A DNA stretch of 21,449 nt from an uncultured Rubritalea sp. (lineage in GTDB: Bacteria; Verrucomicrobiota; Verrucomicrobiia; Verrucomicrobiales; Akkermansiaceae): the NCBI GenBank assembly GCA_937951395.1, contig CALFBV010000116.1:1-21449 (forward strand), in the 5' to 3' direction. Each line of letters starts with the position of its first letter. The first letter of the stretch is position 1. Below are positions 1,838 to 21,449 of this stretch, piece after piece. The notes beneath the pieces were generated by a model, which was not told the origin of the DNA, searched no databases, and worked only from the letters and a program-made list of their open reading frames with translations. The translations under genes and the position numbers were made by a program.

Positions 1838-3322
1838 GTGAACCCTGATCGCCACAACAGCAATACCATTTTCCTAATCTATCTGTTAGTGGCAGTGCTG
1901 GGGTATTTCATATTACCTATAGTGCAGCAATATATTCCACTCATTGAGGGGAAAACACTGACTCAGTGGGATGCCATGGCTATCCCCAATGAAAAGACGA
2001 TCCTGAATAGACAAGAAATTCTTAGTCAGAAAAGTGCGGAGGTTCCCGTGCCCCCCAGCTATCTCGTATGCAGAATAGATGATGATCCGGATGGGATGAA
2101 TGCCTACGGAATCTATGATCCTACGGATCTTGCTGTGACGGTGAGAAATCTAGTCAGGCTTGAAGCGAAACACCTTTTTCTTGGAACGCATCTGCACTGG
2201 CCTGATCTGCCTGAGATAGAGAACAATACGCTGAACTCTCAGCTTGAGCTCCTAGAGTCCTGTATCCTGTCGACACCTTTGCGCCGCACAGCGGACGTGG
2301 TGGAGATTCCGGGTTATCTGTTAGACTCATCGCTACCGCTCGGTGAGGTAAAGGGGAACTCGCAGACGCTTCCTAAAGTCAATAACTTAAGCCTAGCGCT
2401 CACTTTAAAAATCCCTAATAATTGTAAGGTAGGATTTTCTCAGCTAGAGAGTGAACCTGTGACGAGTGATATACCGCTGCTCGCAGTCTGGGGTGATCGA
2501 GTGATCTTGTCTTCGCTTCTGTTAGAGAGAATGCATCACCTAAAACTTACCCCTGCGGACATCCAGATCACGATAGGGAAATTCGTCTCACTAGGTGATA
2601 CGGGAAACGTCATTCCAATCGATGAATTTGGATATTACACACCCACAGAATTTCCTAAGGTGACCAAGGCACATATTATTTCTGCGGATATCACATCAAT
2701 AGAGAAGTCACCAGTTGAGACAGCTAATGCCGTTCTAACGGCCTCTGGCGCTAAGGCTGATAGCTACCGTGCTATCGAGTCACCAGTGAAGCAACTCACG
2801 CAGCTCACACTTACTCCAGTGTTCTCAGAAACGGTGAAATACCAGCGTATATGGTGGTGGGCGGAGCTGATATTGGCGCTGCTTGTTGCTCTTTTAATGG
2901 CGATAGCGGTGAAACGCTCTGTGTTGATCTACTGGCTTTGGGCGTTGTTTCTTGCTGGGATATTGATATTGGGAAGTATGCATCTCAGTCGTGAGTCTAT
3001 TTATTTCGCTCCCGTCATTTATTTACTACTAGCACTAGTTGTGTGCATGATTGTGTTCCCATTCTTTAAGAGTAGAGCGAACTTCATTCACGAGCTTATT
3101 GCTAATCAGCATGATCTCGGTGATCTCTCATCACTCTATAAGCAAGAGAACTTTGCGGCTAAAGATCTAACCGTAGCAAAACTTTCTGCCCGTGACCGCA
3201 AGCATCTCCCTAAGCAGAGAAGACGCCAGAAACGTGTAGATAAGAAGAAAAATAAAATTACCGAGCCAGTAGCTTCAGAAACGAACTCTGAGTCCGAGCC
3301 AACCAAGAAAACCGATCAATAA
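1838..3322 (+). CDS. Unrecognised four-helix membrane protein with large extracytoplasmic domain
   Basis: I do not recognise the family. The 494-residue protein starts at a GTG 16 bases after the kinase gene. It has one transmembrane helix near the N-terminus (about residues 11-33), a long soluble stretch of about 300 residues presumably in the periplasm, three closely spaced helices (about 335-412, opening with three tryptophans) and a cytoplasmic tail that is first strongly basic (a K/R-rich run about residues 455-470) and then acidic and Ser/Thr rich. Position between sugar-nucleotide genes and argB, with only one base to the argB start, implies co-transcription, but no function follows from this. 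A role in envelope or glycan assembly is possible given the two genes upstream. Confidence 0.75.
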   Translation: MNPDRHNSNTIFLIYLLVAVLGYFILPIVQQYIPLIEGKTLTQWDAMAIPNEKTILNRQEILSQKSAEVPVPPSYLVCRIDDDPDGMNAYGIYDPTDLAVTVRNLVRLEAKHLFLGTHLHWPDLPEIENNTLNSQLELLESCILSTPLRRTADVVEIPGYLLDSSLPLGEVKGNSQTLPKVNNLSLALTLKIPNNCKVGFSQLESEPVTSDIPLLAVWGDRVILSSLLLERMHHLKLTPADIQITIGKFVSLGDTGNVIPIDEFGYYTPTEFPKVTKAHIISADITSIEKSPVETANAVLTASGAKADSYRAIESPVKQLTQLTLTPVFSETVKYQRIWWWAELILALLVALLMAIAVKRSVLIYWLWALFLAGILILGSMHLSRESIYFAPVIYLLLALVVCMIVFPFFKSRANFIHELIANQHDLGDLSSLYKQENFAAKDLTVAKLSARDRKHLPKQRRRQKRVDKKKNKITEPVASETNSESEPTKKTDQ

Positions 3323-3323
3323 A

Positions 3324-4208
3324 ATGTCACGAGAAATAGACCAGACCATCAGCAAGGCAGCCACACTGGTGGAAGCCTTACCCTACCTTCAGTCATTTAG
3401 AGGGAAGACGTTTCTCATCAAGATGGGCGGATCTGCTATGGATGACCCTGAATTAGTGCGTAAAGTCATGCGTGATATCGTCTTTTTAGAAGTGGCGGGG
3501 ATTAATCCTATCGTCGTTCACGGTGGAGGAAAAGCCATCTCAGCGGCAATGAAGGAAGCGGGTCTGGAGGCTAAATTCATCGGTGGTTTCCGTGTGACCT
3601 CTCCAGAAGCAGCAAATATAGTCGAGAAGACTCTATCTGGAACGATCAATCCCGGACTAGTCGCAATGATTAAAGATTATGGGGGCAAAGCAGTCGGTTT
3701 TCCCGGTACTGAGATCTTCACAGGAGAGAGGATCAAATCGATAAACGAGCAAGGCGAAGAAGTAGATATTGGTAGAGTGGGGCAGGTAGTGAGCTGTAAT
3801 ATGGACAAGATGAAAGAGGCGTTTGATGCTGAGATCGTCCCTGTTATTTCACCACTCGCCTCCGAGTTAGGCAGTGGAAAAAAGCTCAACGTTAATGCAG
3901 ACTTAGCCGCAGCGGCACTCGCCAAAGAACTAAAAGTAACTAAACTCATCTACCTATCAGATGTGCCAGGAGTGATGCGAGACCCAGCAGACGAGACCAC
4001 TATCATTCCTTCTATCAACCCTAGCTCAGCAGAAGAACTTATTGAGAGGGGAATCGTCTCTGGCGGAATGCTGCCGAAGGTGAATTCCGCTCTAGATGCC
4101 CTAGATCACGGAGTCAAAAAAGTCCACTTCATCGATGGCAGAATGCCTCATTCACTACTGTTAGAAATATTCACTGAGTCTGGAATAGGGACGGAAATTG
4201 TTTCTTAG
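3324..4208 (+). CDS. argB: Acetylglutamate kinase
   Basis: N-acetyl-L-glutamate kinase phosphorylates N-acetylglutamate in the second step of the acetylated arginine pathway, in the cytosol. Visible family motifs are K-x-GGSAM at about residues 33-39, VHGGGK at 65-70, G-FRVT near 88-92, GKAVG near 121-125, NVNAD at 189-193, LSDVPGV and GGMLPK in the C-terminal ATP-binding half. At 294 residues it is longer than the E. coli enzyme and has an N-terminal helix before the Lys motif ending in EALPYLQSFRGKT, the feature of the hexameric, arginine-feedback-inhibited class (family knowledge). The segment after GKAVG reads GFPGTE rather than the more common GLSGKD, a mild departure. It begins one base after the membrane-protein stop and ends overlapping the convergent Maf gene by 4 bases. 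Confidence 0.95.
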   Translation: MSREIDQTISKAATLVEALPYLQSFRGKTFLIKMGGSAMDDPELVRKVMRDIVFLEVAGINPIVVHGGGKAISAAMKEAGLEAKFIGGFRVTSPEAANIVEKTLSGTINPGLVAMIKDYGGKAVGFPGTEIFTGERIKSINEQGEEVDIGRVGQVVSCNMDKMKEAFDAEIVPVISPLASELGSGKKLNVNADLAAAALAKELKVTKLIYLSDVPGVMRDPADETTIIPSINPSSAEELIERGIVSGGMLPKVNSALDALDHGVKKVHFIDGRMPHSLLLEIFTESGIGTEIVS

Positions 4209-5767
4209 TGGGATTGCTCACCAGCAATTTTTCTAGGGAGATTTTGCACCCAATTTTTCCAGACCTTGATGAAGCCTCCGATGGGTTCCCTCGGAGCTAG
4301 AACCTTTAGTTTAGAGCCAGTGCTGGAAAAACTTACCTCTGTGTGTCTGCCTAGATACTCGCCATCCACTTCGATGGGGACATCGCGGTCTGCCACTACT
4401 TTGAACTCTGCTGCTTGTACGTATTCAACGGATGACTTTACTAAGTCCAGCACGCCAGCTATTCCCTTTAGACTATCGACTACGAATTTGTAGCCGGTTT
4501 CCTTGAAGACCAAAATATCTAACAGACCATCATTGTTGTCTGCCTTGGGGAAAAGTCTGACTTGACCACCGTAGAGCTCTCCATTTCCTGCTAGCACAGC
4601 CACACCTTCTATCTCGCGGCCATCAGAGCATATGAGTGTCATCTTGGGAGGGTTTTCTCCCAGGAGTTTTACTGCGCTCATTAGATAGGCTAGGGGACCT
4701 AACATTTTCTTGGATTCCACAGTGGTGTCTTCTATCACCTGGGCATCGAACCCTATGCCAGCCATCTGGACAAAGGGCTGATCATTGGCGCGAAATAGAT
4801 CTACCTCGGTGATGTGACCACCCTTGATGACTTCTAGAGCGCAGTTGAGGTTAGAACGTTGCATAGTTGGCACTGGGATGCCCATTTCTCTGGCAAAGAC
4901 ATTCATAGTTCCCGTGGGAAGGACACCGAGAGCGGTGTTGGAGCCGATCAGACCCATGATCACAGCATTCAGAGTGCCGTCGCCTCCAGCGGCGAGAACT
5001 ACTGGTTCATTGTCAACGGCAAATTTAGCAGCTAGCTCTCGCGCATCATCTATGCCGCGTGTGGCGTAGAGCGTGAAGTCGGTTGCGTTATTCATCAGGA
5101 AGCGCAGTGATCTACGGCCTCTAGTGCTTCTTGCGTGAGGATTAAACAAAACTGGATAACGGTGATTTTTTGCGACTCGTTGTTTCTCAGGTAGGCACTT
5201 TACTCCAAACTCCTCTAGTTTTTCGCGCACAGATTTGATTGGTAATCCCACTACATTTGAGTGACTTCCAGTCACTTCTATGACGATCATTTCACCGTGC
5301 TCTTGCACTGCGTAGCTGCCCGCCTTATCCATCACATCCACCTTTTCCATATAGGATTCTATGATCTCATCGGTTAGTTCTTTAAATCTTACCTCTGTGA
5401 TCTCGTAAAAGCTTTTGATCTGCTCACCTTTGATGATGCAGACCCCAGTGCAGACTTGGTGAGTTCTACCAGAGAGTTTCTTTAGAGTGGCTATGGCAGC
5501 AGCTCTGTCGCGAGGTTTCCCGAGTGGGGTGCTATCGATGTAGACTAGAGTGTCTGCGCCTATCACGATGTGATTCTGATGCTCAGGTCTGCCAGCGATG
5601 GCGGATGCTTTTGATTGTGCGTTGATGCAGCAGAGCTCGGGTAGGGGAGTCTCATGGCAGTGAATTTCCTCACCCGGTGATGGGATTACTTGAAAATCTT
5701 CTAGCAATGAGGAGAGGAGTTCGCTCCTTCTAGGAGAGCTTGAGGCTAGTATGATGTCTGCATTCAT
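4205..5767 (-). CDS. maf: Maf nucleotide pyrophosphatase - diacylglycerol/lipid kinase fusion
   Basis: One open frame of 520 residues joins two enzymes. Residues 1-190 are a complete Maf protein: ASSSPRR at 8-14, GADT at 70-73 with the catalytic Asp, SGRTH at 99-103, DKAG at 147-150 and GSHSNVVGLP at 167-176. Maf proteins hydrolyse non-canonical or pyrimidine NTPs and were linked to division-septum control. After a short basic linker, residues about 204-495 are a DAGK/YegS-type lipid kinase: NPHA at 209-212, the nucleotide loop GGDGTLN at 261-267, LPTGTMNVFAR near 283-293, and a C-terminal VDGE motif. Such kinases phosphorylate diacylglycerol or related lipids at the membrane. The last 30 residues are Trp- and Lys-rich and may touch the membrane. 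There is no stop or frameshift between the parts. It follows the rRNA methyltransferase gene by 5 bases, so the two are probably one transcript. Confidence 0.93.
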   Translation of the reverse strand: MNADIILASSSPRRSELLSSLLEDFQVIPSPGEEIHCHETPLPELCCINAQSKASAIAGRPEHQNHIVIGADTLVYIDSTPLGKPRDRAAAIATLKKLSGRTHQVCTGVCIIKGEQIKSFYEITEVRFKELTDEIIESYMEKVDVMDKAGSYAVQEHGEMIVIEVTGSHSNVVGLPIKSVREKLEEFGVKCLPEKQRVAKNHRYPVLFNPHARSTRGRRSLRFLMNNATDFTLYATRGIDDARELAAKFAVDNEPVVLAAGGDGTLNAVIMGLIGSNTALGVLPTGTMNVFAREMGIPVPTMQRSNLNCALEVIKGGHITEVDLFRANDQPFVQMAGIGFDAQVIEDTTVESKKMLGPLAYLMSAVKLLGENPPKMTLICSDGREIEGVAVLAGNGELYGGQVRLFPKADNNDGLLDILVFKETGYKFVVDSLKGIAGVLDLVKSSVEYVQAAEFKVVADRDVPIEVDGEYLGRHTEVSFSSTGSKLKVLAPREPIGGFIKVWKNWVQNLPRKIAGEQSH

Positions 5768-6458: not shown

Positions 6459-7652
6459 ATGAAGCTTCAGAATAAAATTCTTAGTAGATTGATGGTATTA
6501 GCAGTTGTTTCACTCACTCTCACTCAGTGTGTAACTCAGCAGGTGACGCAGGAGCTAGATCAGAATGTGGAGAAACAGGGGGAGTCTTACGCACGTGAGC
6601 TAGCGGCTCAGTCACCATTTAAAAAAGTAGAGATGTCATGGATGGAGGCATCTGAACTAATGAAGGACAGAAATCCGAGTTATCGGAAGGCGATAACAGA
6701 TAAAGAAGAGTCTCAGATCAAGCGAGGGCTAGTCAACAACCTCACCTTCGAAGTGCGCAAGAGCCTCTCTAATAGTGTGCAGACTACTCTCAATCCTAGC
6801 GAGCTAGCGAGTGCGATGAAGGATCCAGTAGCATCTCTCCCAAAGCAGCTAGAATCCATCACCGATCTGAAAAACATCACTCACTCACTGACTCAATCAG
6901 AGTGGGAGCGGGTCTCACAGAGCATGAAGGCAGACACGGCTCAGCGTAAGGAGATGGTGAACTTGCATGCCTTGTTCTGCCAGAGTGAAAATCTAAGCCA
7001 GGCTGAGGACAACATCCGGCGGATCAAGCAAGAGCTAGCGCTGAAGGGTGGTGTCATCACGAAAGAAAGTAAGGCGATGACTGTGGAGCTAACAAAGGCG
7101 CAAGGCGTCCTCACTAAGGAACGCCAGCAATGGCTGGACCAGGTGAGAAATTTCTTTAATGCTGAATATTTTGATGTGGAATTCAATCATTATACAAAAC
7201 GGCTGAACTTTTATCGCACTGTGCATAATCCAGAATTTTCAGACTGGAGGCGCTGGAGAGTTCTTGAGAATTCAGCTCGGCTAGCTACCGAAATGCAGAA
7301 GCAGCACGTCAAAGAAAAACCGGTGCTGCCGGGGATGAATCGAATCAAACAAAACTTCGGAGTGGATGAGCTGAGGAGCAGTTTAGCAGAGCAGAGCACA
7401 CTCAATGAGAGTATGGCACATGAGGTGCGTCAGATGCTCAAGAACTGGCGTAATCTCAAGTCCGTGCAGAGTAAGATAGCGCAGACAGAGGTAAGTTTTG
7501 CTCAATCTCCATCAATCACTGATCCACTCCCAAGTGTAGCTGACCTCAAACGCGTCACTGTGATGTATCACCTCAAGAAAAAAGAAATAGAGCATCTGAA
7601 GTCATTCTGGATGATCGATGAGAAGTGCTGGAAGTCTGAGAAAAAAGGATAA
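6459..7652 (+). CDS. Putative coiled-coil lipoprotein, possibly TolC-like
   Basis: No family is recognised with confidence. The N-terminus is a signal sequence with a basic start, a hydrophobic core and Cys24 in LTLTQC. Gln before the Cys is unusual for a lipobox, so lipid attachment is probable rather than certain. The remaining about 370 residues are rich in Lys, Glu, Gln and Leu with long helical stretches. The sequence MSWMEASELMKDRNPSYRKA soon after the signal resembles the opening helix of TolC-type outer-membrane factors, where an x-x-NP motif is typical, but no beta-barrel segments are evident to me. The gene is divergent from the RNA methyltransferase across about 100 bases that must hold both promoters, and stands alone, about 200 bases ahead of parA. 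Confidence 0.7.
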   Translation: MKLQNKILSRLMVLAVVSLTLTQCVTQQVTQELDQNVEKQGESYARELAAQSPFKKVEMSWMEASELMKDRNPSYRKAITDKEESQIKRGLVNNLTFEVRKSLSNSVQTTLNPSELASAMKDPVASLPKQLESITDLKNITHSLTQSEWERVSQSMKADTAQRKEMVNLHALFCQSENLSQAEDNIRRIKQELALKGGVITKESKAMTVELTKAQGVLTKERQQWLDQVRNFFNAEYFDVEFNHYTKRLNFYRTVHNPEFSDWRRWRVLENSARLATEMQKQHVKEKPVLPGMNRIKQNFGVDELRSSLAEQSTLNESMAHEVRQMLKNWRNLKSVQSKIAQTEVSFAQSPSITDPLPSVADLKRVTVMYHLKKKEIEHLKSFWMIDEKCWKSEKKG

Positions 7653-14014: not shown

Positions 14015-15064
14015 TCACTTTTTATTTATAAAGCGATAGTGCGATACAAACCATTCTTCGCCATTGCGAAAGCCCCAAAGTTCAGCGCAAGCCATGTAGA
14101 AGCAGCGCCAGTAAACCCACCATTTAGTAGCTTGATCTTTGCCGTAGGTTTCTTGGATCAAAGGGAAGAGTTTTTCCTTGTTAGCATCCATGCGGTCTAG
14201 CCAGGCGTTACAGGTTCGCTCGTAGTGGCTGCCGTTCACTTGCCAGTGGTCGTCGATGGATAAATGGTCTTGGAAATAGAGCAGGAGGTCATCGCTCGGC
14301 ATCTGTCCCCCGGTGAAGAAATACTTGCTCATCCAGTCATCATCACTTTCTACCTCGAAATGATAGGAGGTGTCCTTGTGGGTGAAAATGTGGACGGAGA
14401 GTGTTCCATCTGGCTTGAGCCACTCACTGATTCTCTCTAACAGAATCTGGTAATTCTTCATGTGCTCAAACATTTCTACCGATACGACACGGTCGAAGAT
14501 GCTCTCTCCTTCACCACGATAGTCGATCATGTTTACTGTCTTAACCGTTACATTAGTCAGTCCACGGTCTCCGAGTTGGGAGTTGATGAATTCACGCTGA
14601 GTGTTGGAATTTGATATTGCAGTGATCTCAGAATTTGGGAAATATTGTGCCATCCAGAGCGTGAGAGATCCCCAGCCGCAGCCGAGTTCTAGGATGCGGT
14701 CGCCATCGATGATGTTGGCGCGTTCACAGGTAAGTTTTAACATTCGGGCTTCTGAGGCTTCGATATCTGAACTGGTCTCACCATCTTTCCAGTAGCCAGA
14801 GCTGTATTTTAAATGTGGACCCAGACAGCCTTGGAAGAACTTAGTCGGTAGCTCGTAGTGTTGCTCGTTAGCTTCATCAGTAGCGATGGCTAGCGGGCTG
14901 TTCTTGAGGTCGTTGATGTGTTTGATGAGTGCCACTTGACGGTCTTCGCAGTGGGTTGGGCGGAATTTATTCAGAGTCTTCAGGAGTCGCTTGCGGATAC
15001 CGAAACGGATCATTGAGTCTGGAATGCGGTCGTTTTCTAGCCAGTCGTTAATATCTAATGTCAT
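14015..15064 (-). CDS. SAM-dependent methyltransferase, CFA synthase / coclaurine N-methyltransferase-like
   Basis: The SAM-binding motif ELGCGWGSL is at residues 126-134, preceded by HYELPTKFFQGCLGPHLKYSSGYW (about 69-92, key HYELP and KYSSGYW) and followed by SVEMFEHM and VHIFTH. This wording belongs to the CFA-synthase-like subgroup that includes plant coclaurine N-methyltransferases and many bacterial homologues of unknown substrate, not to classical Cfa. Ser stands where Cfa has its bicarbonate-binding Cys; the later Glu (MFEHM) and a His (VHIFTH) are kept. As the last gene of the operon, overlapping the DUF1295 gene by four bases, it probably acts on the same lipid as the first methylase, for instance adding a second methyl group. 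An amine headgroup substrate is the main alternative. Confidence 0.88.
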   Translation of the reverse strand: MTLDINDWLENDRIPDSMIRFGIRKRLLKTLNKFRPTHCEDRQVALIKHINDLKNSPLAIATDEANEQHYELPTKFFQGCLGPHLKYSSGYWKDGETSSDIEASEARMLKLTCERANIIDGDRILELGCGWGSLTLWMAQYFPNSEITAISNSNTQREFINSQLGDRGLTNVTVKTVNMIDYRGEGESIFDRVVSVEMFEHMKNYQILLERISEWLKPDGTLSVHIFTHKDTSYHFEVESDDDWMSKYFFTGGQMPSDDLLLYFQDHLSIDDHWQVNGSHYERTCNAWLDRMDANKEKLFPLIQETYGKDQATKWWVYWRCFYMACAELWGFRNGEEWFVSHYRFINKK

Positions 15065-15849
15065 GATGTTTTCGTTGTCGATTTGTTTTTAAACCAAGGA
15101 ATGAAGGAACTCGTGGTTTGTTGGTATTCTCTGTAGGCGTCGCCTCTACTTTTCAGAAGTGAACGTTCCAGTGGTGGGATGCCGGTGACTTTAGTGAGCA
15201 GAAAGATCATGATGATAGGAGCATGAATGGTGTAGATGCCCCCTGGAGCTGCGCTGCAGAAGAGATAGATAGCTATCCAGATCACGGCTTCGAAAAAGTA
15301 GTTAGGGTGACGACTATAGTTCCACAATCCGATTTTACAGATCTTTCCTCCTCCGCTTTGACTTATGAAGTTAGCTAGTTGTTTATCCGCAATCGTTTCA
15401 CCGATGAACCCTACTATGAAAACACCTAAGCCTACCCACTCTAATAATTGAAGAGGAGCATCTGACTGAGAAGAGAAATAAAAGGGGAGTGATAGTAGAA
15501 AAACTAATATTGCGTTTGTGAGGAAAATGAACAGAAAATTTCTGTTAGCATTATCTCCCCATTTGTCTCGCATCTCTTTGTAGCGTTTATCTTCTTTTGG
15601 ATGTTTAGAGTAGATACGTTTTACAAGATGGCTACCTAGTCTCACTGACCAGATGAGAGCCATAGCGATAAGAATAATTTTTCTATCACTGCGGCCCTCA
15701 TGAGAAGCAATGTAGATAAGCACTGGAATACCCAAACTCAGTGCCCACATCGCATCTACGAAACTCGCGTTTTTAATTTTCATCGAAGCGAGCCATCCGA
15801 TCACAAAAATGATCGTGAGGATCAAGGCGCTGGGAATTAAAATGTTCAT
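15061..15849 (-). CDS. DUF1295 membrane protein, steroid 5-alpha-reductase-like
   Basis: The 262-residue integral membrane protein has about six to seven hydrophobic helices and the DUF1295 signature FVDAMWALS near residue 30, the R-L-G-S-H-L-x-x-R segment near 80-90, and LWNYSRHPNYFFE near 175-187. The last resembles the NADPH-binding region of steroid 5-alpha-reductases and isoprenylcysteine methyltransferases, whence a proposed reductase role on membrane lipids. A DUF1295 gene (Rv0446c, from memory) also sits next to the ufaA1 methylase of M. tuberculosis. The ATG directly follows the DUF2062 stop with no spacer, and its own end overlaps the second methylase gene by four bases, so all are co-translated. 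Function is inferred from family and place only. Confidence 0.85.
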   Translation of the reverse strand: MNILIPSALILTIIFVIGWLASMKIKNASFVDAMWALSLGIPVLIYIASHEGRSDRKIILIAMALIWSVRLGSHLVKRIYSKHPKEDKRYKEMRDKWGDNANRNFLFIFLTNAILVFLLSLPFYFSSQSDAPLQLLEWVGLGVFIVGFIGETIADKQLANFISQSGGGKICKIGLWNYSRHPNYFFEAVIWIAIYLFCSAAPGGIYTIHAPIIMIFLLTKVTGIPPLERSLLKSRGDAYREYQQTTSSFIPWFKNKSTTKTS

Positions 15850-16371
15850 CTAGCTAGTTTGTTTCTGGTTAGATTTTCTGTTCATGTATTTCTTGATCAA
15901 ATAGCGGAAGATGAAAAATAGTGGGATAGCAAACCATGGTGCAATGAGTGCCCATGCTTCTATCCCATAAAGAGCAGTCATGCCGAAGTCCCTGGCAAAC
16001 TGCATTGGGTCTTCTTTGAATTTGACGAGTAGCTGTGGAATACTGAATGGTATGTGAGGAGCGCCATTAATAGATTCCCCGATGCGGATGAAAACTAAAA
16101 TCAGACCGAGGTGCAGTGGGTAAAATAAGCTCTTAAAGAGTAATAAGAACGGAAGGTTCATCCGTAAAACAGAACCTACTAGAAGACTCAGCAGGTTGGT
16201 AGAACCTAACACTGGGAAAGCGGATATGACTGGTGAGATAGCCATTGTGAGCGATATTTTTTCTACCGAGACCCCACGACTGAGTTGATTCTTAATTGGT
16301 TTCACCATAAACTTCTTCCAGAATCTGGAGAGTCTGCCTTCTGGTGCTGGGACTGTTTGTTCCTGAGTCAA
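15850..16371 (-). CDS. DUF2062 membrane protein
   Basis: This 173-residue protein has the DUF2062 pattern: a basic N-terminal stretch (FWKKFMVKPIKNQL), then LG-x-x-x-LL-x-x-LVGSVLRMN near residues 57-72, a long hydrophobic pair of helices, and a last helix followed by KKYMNRKSNQK. Proteins of this family are small inner-membrane proteins without known activity, sometimes fused to or next to glycosyltransferases and lipid-active methylases. The start is a TTG at 16371 (no ATG is available before residue 22), 14 bases after the first methylase gene, with no Shine-Dalgarno site. A start at the internal ATG (MVKPIK) is possible. Its insertion between methylase and DUF1295 genes is a departure from the mycobacterial order. 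Confidence 0.75.
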   Translation of the reverse strand: MTQEQTVPAPEGRLSRFWKKFMVKPIKNQLSRGVSVEKISLTMAISPVISAFPVLGSTNLLSLLVGSVLRMNLPFLLLFKSLFYPLHLGLILVFIRIGESINGAPHIPFSIPQLLVKFKEDPMQFARDFGMTALYGIEAWALIAPWFAIPLFFIFRYLIKKYMNRKSNQKQTS

Positions 16372-16385
16372 AATTTCGATAAGTC

Positions 16386-17648
16386 TTATCTAACAGATGT
16401 AAGTTTTTCGTTGTTGGGTTTTGTATAGATAGCTTGGACTACACTGATGTTTCTGGTGGCGAATGCGGCTTCGCAATACTTAAGGTAGTAATTCCATTTG
16501 CGGATGAAGGTATCGTCGAAGCCTTGTTCTTTTACGGAAGCTAACTCTGCATTGAAGCGATCATACCATTCTGAAAGTGTGCGTGCGTAGTCTAGTCCCA
16601 TGTCGTCTATTTGGAAGGTGCTGAGCTCTCCGGTCTTTTTCATCACTTCATTGAGGCGTCCTAGTGAAATGAGTAGGGAACCCGGGAAGATGTGTCTTTG
16701 GATGAAGTCCACACCGCGCTTGAGTTCATCATAACGGCTGTCTGGAACGGTGATCATTTGTAGTCCGAGTGCTCCGTCTGGCTTGAGGAGTTCGTTGCAT
16801 TTACTGAAATAGCTAGGTAGAAACTTATCACCCACAGCTTCTAGCATTTCAATGGATACGATGTGATCAAACTCGCCGGTAATCTCGCGGTAGTCTTGGA
16901 GACGTAGTTCTATTTTGTCTTCTAATCCTGCTCTTTTGACTCGCTGTTGTGCGTAGTTTAACTGTTCCTGAGAAATGGTGACTCCGATAATCTTACAACC
17001 ATAGATAGATGCAGCGTGACACGCAAACCCGCCCCAGCCACAGCCTATTTCTAAGACTTCATCGCCTTCCTTGAGCTGTAGCTTCTGGCAGAGAGCATCA
17101 TATTTCGCGAATTGTGCTTCCTCTAAGGAGGTCTCTTCTTTAGTGAAAAGACCACTCGAATACGTCATCGATGGATCGAGAAACAACTTATAAAAATCGT
17201 TTCCTAAATCGTAGTGTTCGGAGATGTTTTTCTTACTGGTGCGGATAGTATTTGCGCGGGCGATGTGGAAGATCTTGTTGATGAATTTGAATTTATTCAC
17301 CGCCTTGATCTTGTTAGATGATCCCTTCACACCTGTCTTGGCTTTCATGTTGCGGATGAACCAAGTAATGACCGCTCTGATATCTGGAGTGTCCCAGACC
17401 TTCTCCATGTAGGCTTCGCCTAACCCGATGTTGCCATACGCCACGCATTGTCTGAAGAACTCGTTGTCATCGTTGAGATGGATTTCTGCTTCTACTTCAT
17501 GATCCTTGGCTCCGTATTGCTTTTCCGTGCCATCACTATAGCGGAGAAGTAGCCCACTCACGGGCATGCTAGAGAAGAGTTTCTGGATGACTTTTTCCTG
17601 CCATATTCCCTTATTAGGTTTGGTGATTTCTGGTGTGTTACTATCCAT
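16386..17648 (-). CDS. CFA-synthase-family fatty acid methylase (UfaA1/UfaM-like)
   Basis: At 420 residues the protein has the Cfa layout: an N-terminal lipid-binding domain (about 1-130), HYDLGNDFYKLFLDPSMTYSSG at about 145-166 (key residues YDLGN and YSS), SAM motif EIGCGWGG at 200-207, SIEMLEAVG at 265-273 and FIQRHIFPG near 316. Cfa enzymes act on double bonds in phospholipid acyl chains. Here the Cys that helps hold bicarbonate in E. coli Cfa is Ser165, and the later His is Gln297 in LQMIT, while Glu270 is kept. These swaps occur, as far as I recall, in the UfaA1/UfaM branch, which makes methyl or methylene branches, not cyclopropane rings. The neighbours (FAD enzyme, DUF1365) support that branch. 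The start is 2 bases after the DUF1365 stop; no ribosome binding site is visible. Confidence 0.9.
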   Translation of the reverse strand: MDSNTPEITKPNKGIWQEKVIQKLFSSMPVSGLLLRYSDGTEKQYGAKDHEVEAEIHLNDDNEFFRQCVAYGNIGLGEAYMEKVWDTPDIRAVITWFIRNMKAKTGVKGSSNKIKAVNKFKFINKIFHIARANTIRTSKKNISEHYDLGNDFYKLFLDPSMTYSSGLFTKEETSLEEAQFAKYDALCQKLQLKEGDEVLEIGCGWGGFACHAASIYGCKIIGVTISQEQLNYAQQRVKRAGLEDKIELRLQDYREITGEFDHIVSIEMLEAVGDKFLPSYFSKCNELLKPDGALGLQMITVPDSRYDELKRGVDFIQRHIFPGSLLISLGRLNEVMKKTGELSTFQIDDMGLDYARTLSEWYDRFNAELASVKEQGFDDTFIRKWNYYLKYCEAAFATRNISVVQAIYTKPNNEKLTSVR

Positions 17649-17650
17649 GA

Positions 17651-18442
17651 TTATTTTTTAGTGAGGCTTTTATGTGGGCGGAGGACTTCGATCTGGTCAG
17701 AGGCTGTGCCTGATTTATTAGAAATGGGGAATTTACGAATCCACATGATCAGTGCATGCCAGTGGATGAGGAAAATGACGCGTAATGTGAGTAGGGGGTA
17801 TCTAATGGTATACCAGCTTAGGCGCAGAGTACTAAAGGATTTTTGATGACCACGAATGGTGCTCACTAAAACCAAGCCCTCATCATCTTCATCATTGATG
17901 TTGATTGACCATTTTTCATCCTTGGGTCCTATCTGGAAGTCGAAGTAGTCGTTTACTTTTGAAAATGGAGAGACGTAGAAAGCTTTCGCAGTTTTAAGCT
18001 TATACCAGCCGCGTTTGTCTTTCTCATCGATGAGGAACATCTTCTTTTCAAGGAAAGTGTTTCCCACTTCAGCTACGGTTGCGATCACTTCTCCAGAATC
18101 ATTTTCTAAGTAATAGAATGATACGGGATTAAACTGATATCCGAAAATACGTGGAAAAGTTTGTAAGTAGCAGGTGGAAATTTTTGTCAGATCAAATTTT
18201 TTGGTTTCTAAGAAATCAAAGAGTTTTTCTTTGATCGTTTTTTCAGTTCCCTCATCGAGGTAGTCTGCGTCTCTAATACAATAAATGTTCCAGCTGTTTC
18301 TGCTGAATAACCAGTGCTTCTTACTAAGCTGGTCTAGTTCGTCTAAATCGAGCGACATCATGAACACGGAGTAGGTAAATTGGCGCTCGACAGGTTTCAG
18401 TCGTTTATGAAAAATTTTACATTGGTAGAGCGATGATTTCAT
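17651..18442 (-). CDS. DUF1365 protein (UfaO-like candidate)
   Basis: The family signature is clear: SLYQCKIFHKRLKPVERQF at the start (key residues Y-x-G/C-x-x-x-H-x-R), then PRIFGYQFNPVSFYYLEN in the middle (key FGYQFNPVSFYY). DUF1365 proteins nearly always sit between an FAD amine-oxidase-like gene and a CFA-type methylase, as here. In Rhodobacter sphaeroides a gene set with these families is needed for furan fatty acids, and the oxygen-inserting factor UfaO comes from that set; I believe it is the DUF1365 protein but cannot verify this. I choose the ATG at 18442, not the TTG at 18448: an AAGGAG sits 9 bases upstream of the ATG, and the ATG then overlaps the upstream TGA in the classic ATGA form. 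Confidence 0.88.
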   Translation of the reverse strand: MKSSLYQCKIFHKRLKPVERQFTYSVFMMSLDLDELDQLSKKHWLFSRNSWNIYCIRDADYLDEGTEKTIKEKLFDFLETKKFDLTKISTCYLQTFPRIFGYQFNPVSFYYLENDSGEVIATVAEVGNTFLEKKMFLIDEKDKRGWYKLKTAKAFYVSPFSKVNDYFDFQIGPKDEKWSININDEDDEGLVLVSTIRGHQKSFSTLRLSWYTIRYPLLTLRVIFLIHWHALIMWIRKFPISNKSGTASDQIEVLRPHKSLTKK

Positions 18443-19734
18443 TTCCAAACGCTCCTTCCAAGTATGGTTTCACAAAGTGTCACTGCTGACAGTAGACCGT
18501 CTTCATGGAAGCCGTAGCGTTGCCAGGCACCACAGAAAAAGGTATTTGTCTCGCTCAGTCCTTCTTCGTGTAGGCGCGGAATTTCTTTTTGTGCAGTGAT
18601 CGCCGCTAGATCGAAAAGTGGGTGCCTATACTCGATCGTTCTTAGGATATTTTTAGGCTGTTTTTGAGGGTTGATGGTGACGAAGTACTGCTCATTCTCA
18701 GAGACGCCTTGCAGTGAATTCATCCAATAATGGGTAGAGCTTCTGAGACCTTCATCAGTATCGCCTATTTCATAATTCCATGATGCCCAGCAGGGTTTGT
18801 TCTTTGGCATCACGCTGGCATCCGTGTGCATTACTGCTGTGTTTGGCTGGTACTGAAACGCAGAGAGAATCTTAGATTCAGAAAGGGTAGGATCTGCTGT
18901 TAGTTTCAGTGAGTCATCGGCATGAGTAGCAAGAATCACTTGATCAAAGGTTTGCACTCCGTTCTGAGAACTTACCTCTACGCCTTCTGCTGTTCTGCGG
19001 ATAGAGGTTACTGGGTTGTTAACCTGTATTTTATCGTGAAATGGCTGGATCAATTTCTCAACATAAGACTTAGACCCACCACAGACAGTTCTCCATTGCT
19101 TGCGTTCTTTCACTGCGAGAAATCCATGGTTTTTCCAGAATCTCATCAGAGTGATAGCGGGGAATTGCTCTATTTTTTCTGGCGGGCTTGACCAAACGGC
19201 AGATGCCATTGGTACGAGATACCAGCGAAGGAAATTCTCACCATAGTCACGGTGCACCACATACTCACGTAGTGTCATGTGGTGCAGTTTTTCGTTCTCT
19301 ATATCCTCTAGTGCATCAGTATTAAAGCTCTTGATCTGGAAGAGCATTTTCCAAAATTTAAGATTAAATATATTCTTACGCTGCCCGAAAATCTGGTTCA
19401 TTTTACCCCCATTGAACTCCAGTCCATCAGGCAGATGATTGACAGAGAATGACATGTCAGTTTTTTTCGTCTCTACCTTTAGCGCTGCAAATAAGCGTGT
19501 CAGATGTGGATAGGTGTCCTCATTATAAACCATGAATCCCGTGTCGATAGGGATGTCCCTATTACCTTCCTTGACCGTAACTGTGTTGGTGTGACCACCG
19601 ATATAGTCATTCGCTTCATAGAGCGTGAGCTCTGCATCATTCTTTAGGAAATGCGCGCAGCCTAAACCAGAAATCCCAAGACCGACGATGGCGATGGTGG
19701 GTTTCTTTTTATCGTTAGTAGGATTAGATGACAT
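18439..19734 (-). CDS. FAD-dependent amine-oxidase-like dehydrogenase/desaturase (UfaD/BfaA-like position)
   Basis: An N-terminal Rossmann dinucleotide fold VGLGISGLG at residues 17-25 with E40 closing the beta-alpha-beta unit, GGHTNT near 46-51 and IPIDTGFMVYNE near 61-72 place this in the flavin amine oxidase/phytoene desaturase superfamily; the C-terminal CGAWQRYGFHEDGLLSA is the second FAD-contacting motif. The subgroup with PIDTGF-x-V-x-N is the one found beside DUF1365 and CFA-type methylases. In tuberculostearic acid synthesis a flavoprotein partner reduces the methylene group, and in furan fatty acid synthesis a desaturase adds a second double bond; either reaction fits. It overlaps the upstream desaturase gene by 11 bases and the DUF1365 start by 4. 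There is no signal peptide, so it works at the inner face of the membrane. Confidence 0.9.
   Translation of the reverse strand: MSSNPTNDKKKPTIAIVGLGISGLGCAHFLKNDAELTLYEANDYIGGHTNTVTVKEGNRDIPIDTGFMVYNEDTYPHLTRLFAALKVETKKTDMSFSVNHLPDGLEFNGGKMNQIFGQRKNIFNLKFWKMLFQIKSFNTDALEDIENEKLHHMTLREYVVHRDYGENFLRWYLVPMASAVWSSPPEKIEQFPAITLMRFWKNHGFLAVKERKQWRTVCGGSKSYVEKLIQPFHDKIQVNNPVTSIRRTAEGVEVSSQNGVQTFDQVILATHADDSLKLTADPTLSESKILSAFQYQPNTAVMHTDASVMPKNKPCWASWNYEIGDTDEGLRSSTHYWMNSLQGVSENEQYFVTINPQKQPKNILRTIEYRHPLFDLAAITAQKEIPRLHEEGLSETNTFFCGAWQRYGFHEDGLLSAVTLCETILGRSVWK
18452..18457 (-). promoter_or_regulatory. Ribosome binding site that fixes the DUF1365 start
   Basis: AAGGAG on the minus strand, within the end of the FAD enzyme gene, lies 9 bases before the ATG at 18442 and only 3 bases before the competing TTG at 18448. 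It is one of the few clear Shine-Dalgarno sites in the window. Confidence 0.7.
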
Positions 19735-20698
19735 CGGAAATCTTTGTTTTATTGCTGGATTGTTCTTCCTTTAGCAACTCCTTAGGAACTTGACGTAGAT
19801 TTCTAATCAATCCGAGCCAAGACATTAATTTCAGCCCATAATAAGTGATATCAAATTCCCACCATCTGAATCCCTGTCTAGTGCTGTGTGGATAGCGATG
19901 ATGGTTATTATGCCAGCCTTCACCGAGCGTGATGATGGCAAGTAGAGCGCTGTTGCGGCTATCATCATCTGTTTCATAGCGCTGCTTACCCCAGACATGC
20001 GCCATGGAGTTGATCATCAGTGTGCCGTGAAGTAGGAACACGGTGCTTACGAAAAATGTCCAAACGAAGAACTGCGCAGCGGTTACACCCAGTGATGGAT
20101 AGACCGTTTCCAGAAAATATCCGATACCATACATCGCCGCGCCATAAAGGTAAGGTACTAGCTGATCGAAACGATTCAGAAATACTAACTCTGGGTATTT
20201 CGCGAGGTCTTTGATCTGGCTGTAGTCAGTGGGGAAATTTCTTTTACAAGTGATCCAGCCGATGTGAGACCACCAGAACCCCTGCACGCCTGGTGAGTGG
20301 AGATCTTCGTCTGTGTCAGAGTGTTTGTGGTGGTGACGATGGTTAGCTGCCCACCAGAGAGCACCGCGTTGCATGGCTGTATTTCCCCAGACTGCGATGA
20401 TAAACTGCATCACTCTACTCGTCTTAAATGTACGATGAGAAAAGTAACGATGATAAAACCCGGTGATCGCAAACATGCGCAACACATACATTGCGATAGC
20501 AGCAATCACTGCCGTAGGACTCCAGCCTACCCAGATCAGAAAAAATAGACCTAGGTGGATGATAATGAATGGAATGCAGCGCTCCCAGTCCATTTTTTCT
20601 TCAAGTGACTTAGGGTTTTCTATGCGCTTGTAATCAGAGTCCAGCCAGTGCCCCAGCATGTCCTTGATCCTTGATGCTGTCTTTTGTTTATGATCCAT
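19724..20698 (-). CDS. Membrane fatty acyl desaturase (acyl-CoA/acyl-lipid delta-9 type)
   Basis: Three histidine boxes of the di-iron desaturase family are present: HRYFSH near residues 83-88, HRHHH near 120-124 in WWAANHRHHHKHSDTDEDLHSP (key residues), and EGWHNNHHRYP near the C-terminus. Four hydrophobic helices lie between them. The wording is that of stearoyl-CoA-desaturase-like delta-9 enzymes, which use O2 to place a cis double bond in a saturated C16/C18 chain. In this operon it would supply the unsaturated acyl chain that the CFA-type methylase needs. I start at the ATG at 20698, which has GGAG 6 bases upstream; an ATG at 20710 in frame adds four residues. The 3' end overlaps the FAD enzyme gene by 11 bases, indicating coupled translation. 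Confidence 0.92.
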   Translation of the reverse strand: MDHKQKTASRIKDMLGHWLDSDYKRIENPKSLEEKMDWERCIPFIIIHLGLFFLIWVGWSPTAVIAAIAMYVLRMFAITGFYHRYFSHRTFKTSRVMQFIIAVWGNTAMQRGALWWAANHRHHHKHSDTDEDLHSPGVQGFWWSHIGWITCKRNFPTDYSQIKDLAKYPELVFLNRFDQLVPYLYGAAMYGIGYFLETVYPSLGVTAAQFFVWTFFVSTVFLLHGTLMINSMAHVWGKQRYETDDDSRNSALLAIITLGEGWHNNHHRYPHSTRQGFRWWEFDITYYGLKLMSWLGLIRNLRQVPKELLKEEQSSNKTKISDVI

Positions 20699-20719
20699 TC
20701 CGTTCTCCATACTGCGCTG

Positions 20720-21376
20720 TTAGAGGCGTTTTTTAATCATGCGGATACCGCCACCGATGACTGACACATGCTCAAACATTCCGCTCGTTGAGTCCCAGAA
20801 GTCTTGGTGAATCAGAGCTTTTCCATCTTTATCAAATACCACGTGAGACATCCCTATCGATACGATTTCCTTACCGCTGGCTAGCTTGGGTGCGGAGAAC
20901 TTCATCGTCCAGCGAAGGTAGTATCCATTCCCCGTAGTAGATTTAGAAATATCTTCTATTTCCAAGGAGTAGCCAGTCATCACCTTCGAGGTTTTGATGA
21001 AGTGCTGCTTTATTTCTCCGCGATTCGTGAGTGTTTTTAGAGTGTCATTGAGATACGCATTTTCAGCATAGACATTAGAGATTTCGCGCTCGATAAATTC
21101 CTCAGATCCGATATCTTGTAGGAATTTACTGAAGCGGTCCAGGGCGGCTTTTGATTCAGCTTCACTGAGGTCAGCAGTTTGTGGGGCTGAGGCAGTTTTC
21201 GCTTTATAGTATGTGAGTGCTTGTTCGTTCATATTTTTATTCTGACTACAACCAGTGATGAGAAATAGGGCTATACACATAGAAAATCCGACCCATCCCA
21301 GCCAAGGGAATATCGTTTTTATTCCACTCAAGATAGGAGAGGGGTGAGAAGTTCTTTTCTGATTACTGGTCTTCAT
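20720..21376 (-). CDS. SnoaL/NTF2-like lipoprotein, first gene of the operon
   Basis: The N-terminus has a signal sequence with a long polar part, a hydrophobic core (about residues 22-41) and a good lipobox LITGC with Cys43. After an Ala/Ser/Gln-rich linker, residues about 65-190 look like a SnoaL/NTF2-fold domain: LDRFSKFLQDIG, NAYLNDTLKTLTNRGEIKQHF and HQDFWDSTSG, a cone-shaped fold that can hold a hydrophobic ligand. NTF2-like proteins accompany CFA/DUF1365 gene sets in several proteobacteria, from memory. It may bind or carry a lipid in the periplasm. Start is uncertain: the frame is open to a GTG at 21415; the ATG at 21376 gives a more normal signal peptide. The desaturase gene begins 9-21 bases downstream. 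The AT-rich 21416-21449 edge may hold the operon promoter. Confidence 0.8.
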   Translation of the reverse strand: MKTSNQKRTSHPSPILSGIKTIFPWLGWVGFSMCIALFLITGCSQNKNMNEQALTYYKAKTASAPQTADLSEAESKAALDRFSKFLQDIGSEEFIEREISNVYAENAYLNDTLKTLTNRGEIKQHFIKTSKVMTGYSLEIEDISKSTTGNGYYLRWTMKFSAPKLASGKEIVSIGMSHVVFDKDGKALIHQDFWDSTSGMFEHVSVIGGGIRMIKKRL

Positions 21377-21449
21377 AGATATAGAACGAAGCAAAGGTTG
21401 ATTTAGATGCTTCACTCTTAATAATAGTAATTAATTATTTTTTTACTAT

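Follow-up and report, generated by a model that had tools for sequence, protein, structure and literature searches.

The DNA analysed here, called the window below, is an entire contig of 21,449 nt (G000:C116) from an uncultured Rubritalea sp. (Akkermansiaceae, Verrucomicrobiota) whose genome, G000, is 58% complete. It carries an operon of eight open reading frames (ORFs) on the minus strand, between positions 14015 and 21376, encoding in order an NTF2-like putative lipoprotein, a di-iron desaturase, an FAD amine-oxidase-like protein, a DUF1365 protein, a first methylase of the CMAS family (MT1), a DUF2062 protein, a DUF1295 protein, and a second CMAS methylase (MT2). Judged from its sequence, this operon very probably specifies the synthesis of dimethyl furan fatty acids on the acyl chains of membrane phospholipids, through a pathway elucidated in purple bacteria. 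Furan fatty acids are lipids of the membrane that scavenge reactive oxygen. Table 1 lists the features of the locus.

The eight ORFs on one strand, and ATG 21376 as the start of the first gene, were recovered as given in a preliminary description of this DNA. With the start codons chosen here, the spacings along the operon are 9, −11, −10, 2, 14, 0, and −4 bases; the 11-base overlap of that description was found again, whereas its largest gap of 21 bases is reduced to 14, probably through start-codon choice. Pfam upheld its family assignments for the two CMAS proteins (290.8 and 135.9 bits), DUF1295, DUF1365, Amino_oxidase, FA_desaturase, and DUF2062, but the NTF2-like assignment is weak, with SnoaL_2 below its cut-off. 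A convergent TPR gene stops 4 bases past the operon end.

Table 1. Genes of the operon and its promoter motif, with coordinates in the window.
Feature	Position	Strand	Evidence	Proposed role
NTF2/SnoaL-like putative lipoprotein	20720..21376	-	SnoaL_2 26.2 bits (cut-off 27); DUF2358 24.3 bits (at cut-off); ITGC lipobox by eye	
Di-iron acyl desaturase	19724..20710	-	FA_desaturase PF00487, 72.6 bits	Proposed olefin supplier
UfaD orthologue, FAD amine-oxidase/phytoene-desaturase-like	18439..19734	-	Amino_oxidase PF01593, 77.6 bits	Predicted methyl-olefin desaturase
UfaO orthologue, DUF1365	17651..18448	-	PF07103, 228.4 bits	Predicted O2-dependent furan-forming protein
UfaM orthologue (MT1)	16386..17648	-	Identity, tree, SIEMLEAVG signature	Predicted S-adenosylmethionine (SAM)-dependent cis-olefin methylase
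DUF2062 membrane protein	15850..16371	-	PF09835, 30.5 bits (cut-off 27.4)	Accessory
DUF1295 membrane protein, sterol-reductase/SRD5A/ICMT fold	15061..15849	-	Pfam, 221.4 bits	Proposed NADPH reductase partner of FufM
FufM orthologue (MT2)	14015..15064	-	Identity, tree; ATGA overlap with DUF1295	Predicted SAM-dependent furan methylase
Promoter motif GCATCT-N16-CGTTCTA	21382..21410	-	Exact match to GCATCY-N16-CGTTYTA	

Gene deletions and in vitro experiments have established the functions of the four pathway enzymes (PMC7380195): UfaM methylates 18:1 chains, the FAD protein UfaD, which has a phytoene-desaturase-like NAD-FAD domain, forms the diene, the DUF1365 protein UfaO is required for the incorporation of O2-derived oxygen, and the second SAM methylase, FufM, puts on the second methyl group. 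The genomes of Rhodopseudomonas palustris XCP and Cereibacter johrii, searched for the pathway genes, served as direct references. Strain XCP has UfaD-UfaO-UfaM in a cluster and DUF1295-FufM at another place, with a 4-base overlap. Relative to the C. johrii UfaM, its third methylase is 37% and its FufM 28% identical over the aligned part, close to the values of 38% (RPA3082) and 26% (RPA0924) given for the R. sphaeroides UfaM (PMC7380195), which supports the assignment of the XCP methylases. The FAD protein of the operon is 38.6% identical to the UfaD orthologue of R. palustris XCP (residues 14-431) and 39.4% to that of C. johrii (residues 6-427), and its gene adjoins that of UfaO as in both references, which makes it an orthologue of RPA2571 and RSP1091. 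The DUF1365 protein is 30.8% and 29.4% identical to the respective UfaO orthologues. MT1 is 43.4-43.5% identical to the UfaM orthologue of XCP and 44.2% to that of C. johrii, and MT2 is 42.5% identical over 339 aa to the XCP FufM orthologue, compared with 26.9% to the XCP UfaM orthologue. A predicted model of the DUF1365 protein (17651-18448) shows a fatty-acid-binding-protein or lipocalin-like barrel with a helical tail, and is weakly supported.

The preliminary description had named methylase phylogeny as a possible source of refutation; in a tree of 61 rows, rooted for drawing only and with the long reference branches flagged as unsure, both methylases were placed with UfaM and FufM orthologues. 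The MT1 proteins of the operons group with UfaM orthologues at 99/99 support, and three CFA (cyclopropane fatty acid) synthases of solved structure fall apart from this group together with the RPA3082-like protein. MT2 joins the FufM orthologue, apart from the plant coclaurine N-methyltransferase, at 91/83 support. A signature found in this analysis, rather than a published definition, separates the same enzymes: SIEM(L/I/F/M)EA(V/L)G occurs in 27/27 UfaM-type rows covering the site, a count to which the short fragment of L049 does not contribute, and reads SIEMLEAVG in MT1 of the window, whereas SVGMFEHVG stands there in the RPA3082-like protein, as in each of the three CFA synthases. Conservation was counted without L049, a truncated Rhizobium methylase, in the case of MT1 and without L179, L181, L182, and L183 in that of MT2. 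On this sequence evidence, MT1 is identified as UfaM, the flavoenzyme as UfaD, the DUF1365 protein as UfaO, and MT2 as FufM. The enzymes of the pathway named earlier are thus present, with corrections: the role of UfaD falls to the flavin amine-oxidase-like protein, that of UfaO to the DUF1365 protein, and the di-iron desaturase is an additional enzyme, separate from UfaD.

The set of genes was then followed across 58 genomes, made up of G000 and its relatives. DUF1365/UfaO was found in 22 of them, and the same 22 encode a strong DUF1295 (>200 bits), a UfaM-type methylase (>270 bits), and an operon-type desaturase (>280 bits); for this co-occurrence, Fisher p = 1.8e-16, uncorrected for relatedness. 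The desaturase is present in 22/22 genomes with UfaO and in 0/36 without, counting that of G002, which is split across two contigs. The FufM type occurs in those 22 genomes and in G015, whose copy is truncated at the edge of a contig. UfaD lies beside UfaO in all 22 loci, which is where it was looked for. Weak DUF1295 matches in G043 (23.6 bits) and G055 (20.9 bits), and a second one in G009, were set aside. The order of the genes is mostly retained in the relatives, so that the gene set is not a matter of chance. The closest protein matches of MT2, the last gene, include a metagenome-assembled genome of the Akkermansiaceae (88%) and Luteolibacter pohnpeiensis (69%). An NTF2-like relative is found in 14/22 operon genomes, the window included; in locus L033 it lies downstream on the opposite strand, and in G002 on a separate contig. 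DUF2062 had no tblastn match in the operon loci L026, L029, L031, L032, L036, and L039. G057 has kept all of UfaM, DUF1295, FufM, and the desaturase, although they are spread over four contigs apart from UfaD-UfaO (L042, L185, L186, L187, and L188). Since several genera (g1, g10, g13, g18, and g25, as well as g5, although its G015 may be incomplete) hold both operon-bearing and operon-free genomes, joint gain or loss probably occurred several times.

The desaturase follows the pathway even where it is unlinked to the operon, as in five genomes (G038, G042, G046, G049, and G057; identity 46-66%). Other desaturases share at most 37% identity with it and are found whether or not a genome has the operon, so the operon enzyme behaves as a pathway component. 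Among proteins of solved structure, it matches acyl-CoA desaturases (best 9.1e-33). None of the 58 genomes has a FabA above the cut-off (best match 44 bits, probably FabZ), compared with 2/14 controls, so the olefin plausibly comes from the dedicated desaturase. This absence makes it likelier that the pathway is self-contained, starting from a saturated chain.

Since orthologues of UfaD, UfaO, UfaM, and FufM are all present, a dimethyl furan fatty acid is the likeliest product, rather than a compound of the tuberculostearate type. The preliminary description had left the product open between furan and methyl-branched fatty acids; the evidence favours the former and does not support the latter, given the UfaD-type flavoprotein, UfaO, FufM, and the methylase tree. 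In a tuberculostearic acid-type pathway, a CFA-type methylase would make a methylene fatty acid that a flavoprotein of the BfaA type reduces to a 10-methyl branched chain. The operon does hold a flavoprotein near a CFA-type methylase, but this flavoprotein is of the amine-oxidase/phytoene-desaturase type (PF01593) and orthologous to UfaD, the methylase groups with UfaM, and UfaO and FufM would be useless to a branched-chain pathway, all of which makes such a product very improbable. Ordinary cyclopropane fatty acid synthesis amid unrelated neighbours has in its favour that both methylases match the CMAS family, that MT1 shares 35.8% identity with the CFA synthase of E. coli, and that expression of a Halomonas UfaM in E. 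coli is reported along with cyclic fatty acids (PMC12089945). It is hardly credible nonetheless, as MT1 stands outside the CFA synthases (99/99), has no FEHVG signature, and belongs to a gene set co-retained in 22/22 genomes. MT1 also scored 290.9 bits against the NCBIfam equivalog for CFA synthase, below the cut-off of 400. Both readings were rejected on the type of flavoprotein, the presence of UfaO and FufM, the tree, the signature, and co-retention.

A monomethyl furan fatty acid would be the product if MT2 methylated something else, for instance an amine, as the plant coclaurine N-methyltransferases do. Such an enzyme is indeed the best match of solved structure for MT2, at 39.5%. MT2 is nevertheless somewhat closer to the R. 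palustris FufM (42.5%), groups with it, and is encoded in the same operon, and FufM itself is 33.8% identical to the plant N-methyltransferase; this alternative is therefore unlikely.

Turning to regulation, 5 bases separate the end of the motif at the head of the operon from the first ATG (7 to 27 bases in seven relatives), which makes a leaderless start possible. The sequence upstream is nearly invisible in the source genome because the contig ends 73 bases above ATG 21376; an alternative, longer GTG ORF of the first gene (21415) would start 5 bases above the motif. Only 0.06 chance matches to the strict motif, with one mismatch allowed, are expected in the window. The motif was first spotted by eye in upstream regions and tested afterwards, which means that it was not discovered blind; a genome-wide search, a spacing count, and a reversed control served as the tests. 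The strict pattern gave 12 matches in 12 genomes, compared with 3 for the reversed control. They correspond to four operon heads, four genes of ECF (extracytoplasmic function) sigma factors, one DUF1295-FufM pair, two RpoD/RpoS-like sigma genes, and one unrelated gene, with none in the four same-genus operon-free genomes. A relaxed form, GCATC-N17-CGTT, stands at the operon head in 8/8 operon-bearing genomes of the genus (G000, G001, G002, G003, G005, G008, G009, and G011), G005 having this form only. Locus scans covered spacings of 16-18 after GCATC and later 5-30: a spacing of 17 gave 16 matches in ten same-genus stretches, and every other spacing from 5 to 30 gave 0 to 5. Those 16 comprise the eight operon heads, four ECF genes, the DUF1295-FufM pair of G009 (L190 6659-6684), which is separated from the other operon genes and has its own motif copy, and three chance-like matches. 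In G057 (L042), a spacing-18 variant is found 10 bases ahead of the UfaD gene. The motif also occurs about 106-108 bases before a gene for a 285-aa RpoD/RpoS-like sigma factor in G008 and G009 (L199 and L203, position 1501), which raises the possibility of a sigma cascade.

In same-genus relatives, the vicinity of the operon holds genes for a short-chain dehydrogenase/reductase (SDR), an NmrA/DUF2867 protein, a photolyase-related protein, an ECF sigma factor, and a ChrR-cupin protein (L037 13169-18187, L035 5241-6561, L038, and L041), a neighbourhood that we label a photo-oxidative stress cluster. This reading comes from a full Pfam scan of L037, partial scans of L035 and L038, and the leading residues only of L041, where no sigma gene was in reach. 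The ChrR-cupin gene adjoins the ECF gene in all five genomes in which the latter was read (G001, G002, G003, G009, and G011); in G003, this pair and the operon are on different contigs. The anti-sigma factors of the relatives are over the cut-off for PF12973 and below that of the NCBIfam ChrR model (43.0 and 39.0 bits compared with 124.5). Two of them showed no H-x3-C-x2-C motif within their first 60 residues and thus seem to be anti-sigma factors without the ChrR zinc motif. As the motif heads the operon and, in relatives, the ECF gene paired with the ChrR-cupin gene, control by photo-oxidative stress is suggested. The canonical sigmaE promoter motif, that of R. sphaeroides, is of the TGATC type and differs from the motif described here. 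In its strict form, it was found in 0/22 regions upstream of operons or their heads and in 1/3 regions upstream of ECF genes, there inside a neighbouring coding stretch of L035, and was rejected as a candidate.

The DUF1295 gene overlaps fufM by 4 bp both in the operon and in R. palustris XCP. The predicted model of the protein has the fold of the SRD5A (steroid 5-alpha-reductase)/sterol reductase superfamily, resembling sterol reductases and steroid 5-alpha-reductases and, less closely, ICMT. Among Pfam side scores, Steroid_dh was over its cut-off (32.7 bits, cut-off 22.6) and ICMT under (20.4 bits, cut-off 24); in a profile search, the weak matches were ICMT (E 0.051) followed by SRD5A2 (E 0.099). 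The weak profile alignment pairs D155, N183, and E187 with the cofactor-side D, N, and E of SRD5A2, and D155 and N183 are invariant and E187 variable in 27 pathway-linked DUF1295 sequences. The substrate-side catalytic residues of SRD5A are a Glu and a Tyr, and for their region the weak match gave no useful alignment. From the fold and the linkage, DUF1295 is a probable NADPH-dependent membrane reductase, which would act with FufM or on its product. More doubtful is a role in recycling furan lipids, by which the operon would both make and regenerate a membrane antioxidant. A furan fatty acid spent by reactive oxygen species would become an ene-dione (dioxoene), whose C=C bond the NADPH enzyme of steroid 5-alpha-reductase fold would reduce to yield a saturated 1,4-diketone, from which the furan would close again; the DUF1295-FufM pair would then have the same job from Verrucomicrobiota to Rhodopseudomonas. 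The ICMT-type alternative for DUF1295 lowers the odds of this role.

Taken together, the proposed pathway would begin with the di-iron desaturase converting a saturated chain into a cis-olefin. By orthology, UfaM would then transfer a methyl group from SAM to the olefin, UfaD would convert the product into a conjugated methyl diene, UfaO would close the furan ring using O2, and FufM would attach the second ring methyl. The order anticipated in the preliminary description (desaturate, methylate, desaturate or oxidise, methylate) agrees with the UfaM-UfaD-UfaO-FufM chemistry as published (PMC7380195). Transcription would depend on the ECF sigma factor, held by the ChrR-cupin anti-sigma factor, as suggested by the sharing of the motif in same-genus relatives. 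Cells would then produce the lipid during photo-oxidative stress and use it up as an oxidant scavenger or a signal, as proposed in Rhodobacter.

Several observations weigh against this scheme or parts of it. The identity of UfaO to verified lineages is only about 30%, the references are orthologues from R. palustris XCP and C. johrii rather than from the tested strains CGA009 and 2.4.1, MT2 and FufM are set apart from the plant N-methyltransferase by 91/83 support only, and the substrate may be one other than cis-vaccenate. Nor does the ECF/ChrR link hold throughout: PF12973 is present in 15/22 operon genomes and 12/36 others and had no match in the 58% complete G000 itself, and in five loci of other genera of the family (L036, L040, L043, L044, and L184) no copy of the motif was seen heading the operon. 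Finally, DUF1295 is a broader family, with control matches in Caulobacter, Lactococcus, and Methanosarcina, its fold is also that of ICMT methyltransferases, and it is dispensable for the dimethyl step in the reference system since FufM sufficed (PMC7380195).

No report of a furan fatty acid pathway in Verrucomicrobiota, and no paper treating both DUF1295 and furan fatty acids, was found in the open-access papers searched, the former judged from titles and the beginnings of abstracts. The pathway is a known one and, as far as these papers show, the variant is new for the phylum, differing in its promoter and in its form of a single operon with a desaturase. With it, the furan fatty acid pathway of bacteria reaches Verrucomicrobiota in the form of a single self-contained transcription unit, which could be a compact gene source for furan lipid production. 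Two enzymes travel with the pathway beyond its assigned steps, the dedicated desaturase and DUF1295, and the role of the latter is the most interesting part: if DUF1295 repairs spent furan lipids, the fate of these antioxidants after reacting becomes testable. Elsewhere in the window, a single ORF (4205-5767) fuses a Maf domain with a diacylglycerol-kinase/YegS domain, an unexpected fusion, and two long ORFs (1838-3322 and 6459-7652) had no Pfam match at E 0.001.

Among known systems, R. palustris (RPA2571-2569 for UfaD-UfaO-UfaM and RPA0924 for FufM; PMC7380195) resembles the operon in that all four enzymes are orthologous. As in the operon, DUF1295 overlaps fufM by 4 bases in strain XCP, but the genes there form two loci, instead of one unit that adds the desaturase, DUF2062, and the NTF2-like lipoprotein; no relative of the operon desaturase was found within the 13.5 kb read around each locus. 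The furan fatty acid genes of R. sphaeroides belong to the conserved core regulon of sigmaE-ChrR, and sigmaE activates rpoHII (PMC6852236). The relatives studied here likewise link an ECF sigma factor (ECF11 in R. sphaeroides) and a ChrR-type cupin to these genes, and the motif before a second sigma gene in two of them can be likened to the step from sigmaE to rpoHII, although this second sigma factor matches RpoD/RpoS models best, not RpoH.

The same order of desaturase-FAD-DUF1365-CFA-DUF1295-methylase is found on plasmid pYH12207-1 of Acinetobacter piscicola (L047), with identities of 23-50%, a separate NTF2 family gene nearby, a photolyase gene near the pathway, and no DUF2062 found. As this plasmid is typed as mobilizable, the pathway may move between hosts. 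A plasmid of Rhizobium sp. CIAT894 carries a UfaD-like gene, an ECF sigma factor, ChrR, DUF1295-FufM, and DUF1365; its UfaM-like methylase is present as a C-terminal fragment only (L049 12525-12755). Cupriavidus sp. USMAHM13 has UfaM-DUF1295-FufM near DUF1365-FAD. Aeromonas is reported to have a predicted operon of NTF2, SDR, FAD, DUF1365, CFA, and DUF2878 (PMC10012899), Halomonas is reported to have ufaM beside ufaD and ufaO (PMC12089945), and genes for a CFA synthase, DUF1365, and DUF1295 share one table in a study of singlet-oxygen acclimation in Chlamydomonas (PMC4067076). Homologues of UfaM/UfaD, UfaO, and FufM have also been proposed in Arabidopsis, namely AtUFAMD1, AtUFAO1, and LIME1, where similarity to UfaM and UfaD is united in one protein and there is no operon, unlike in Rubritalea (PMC10940516).

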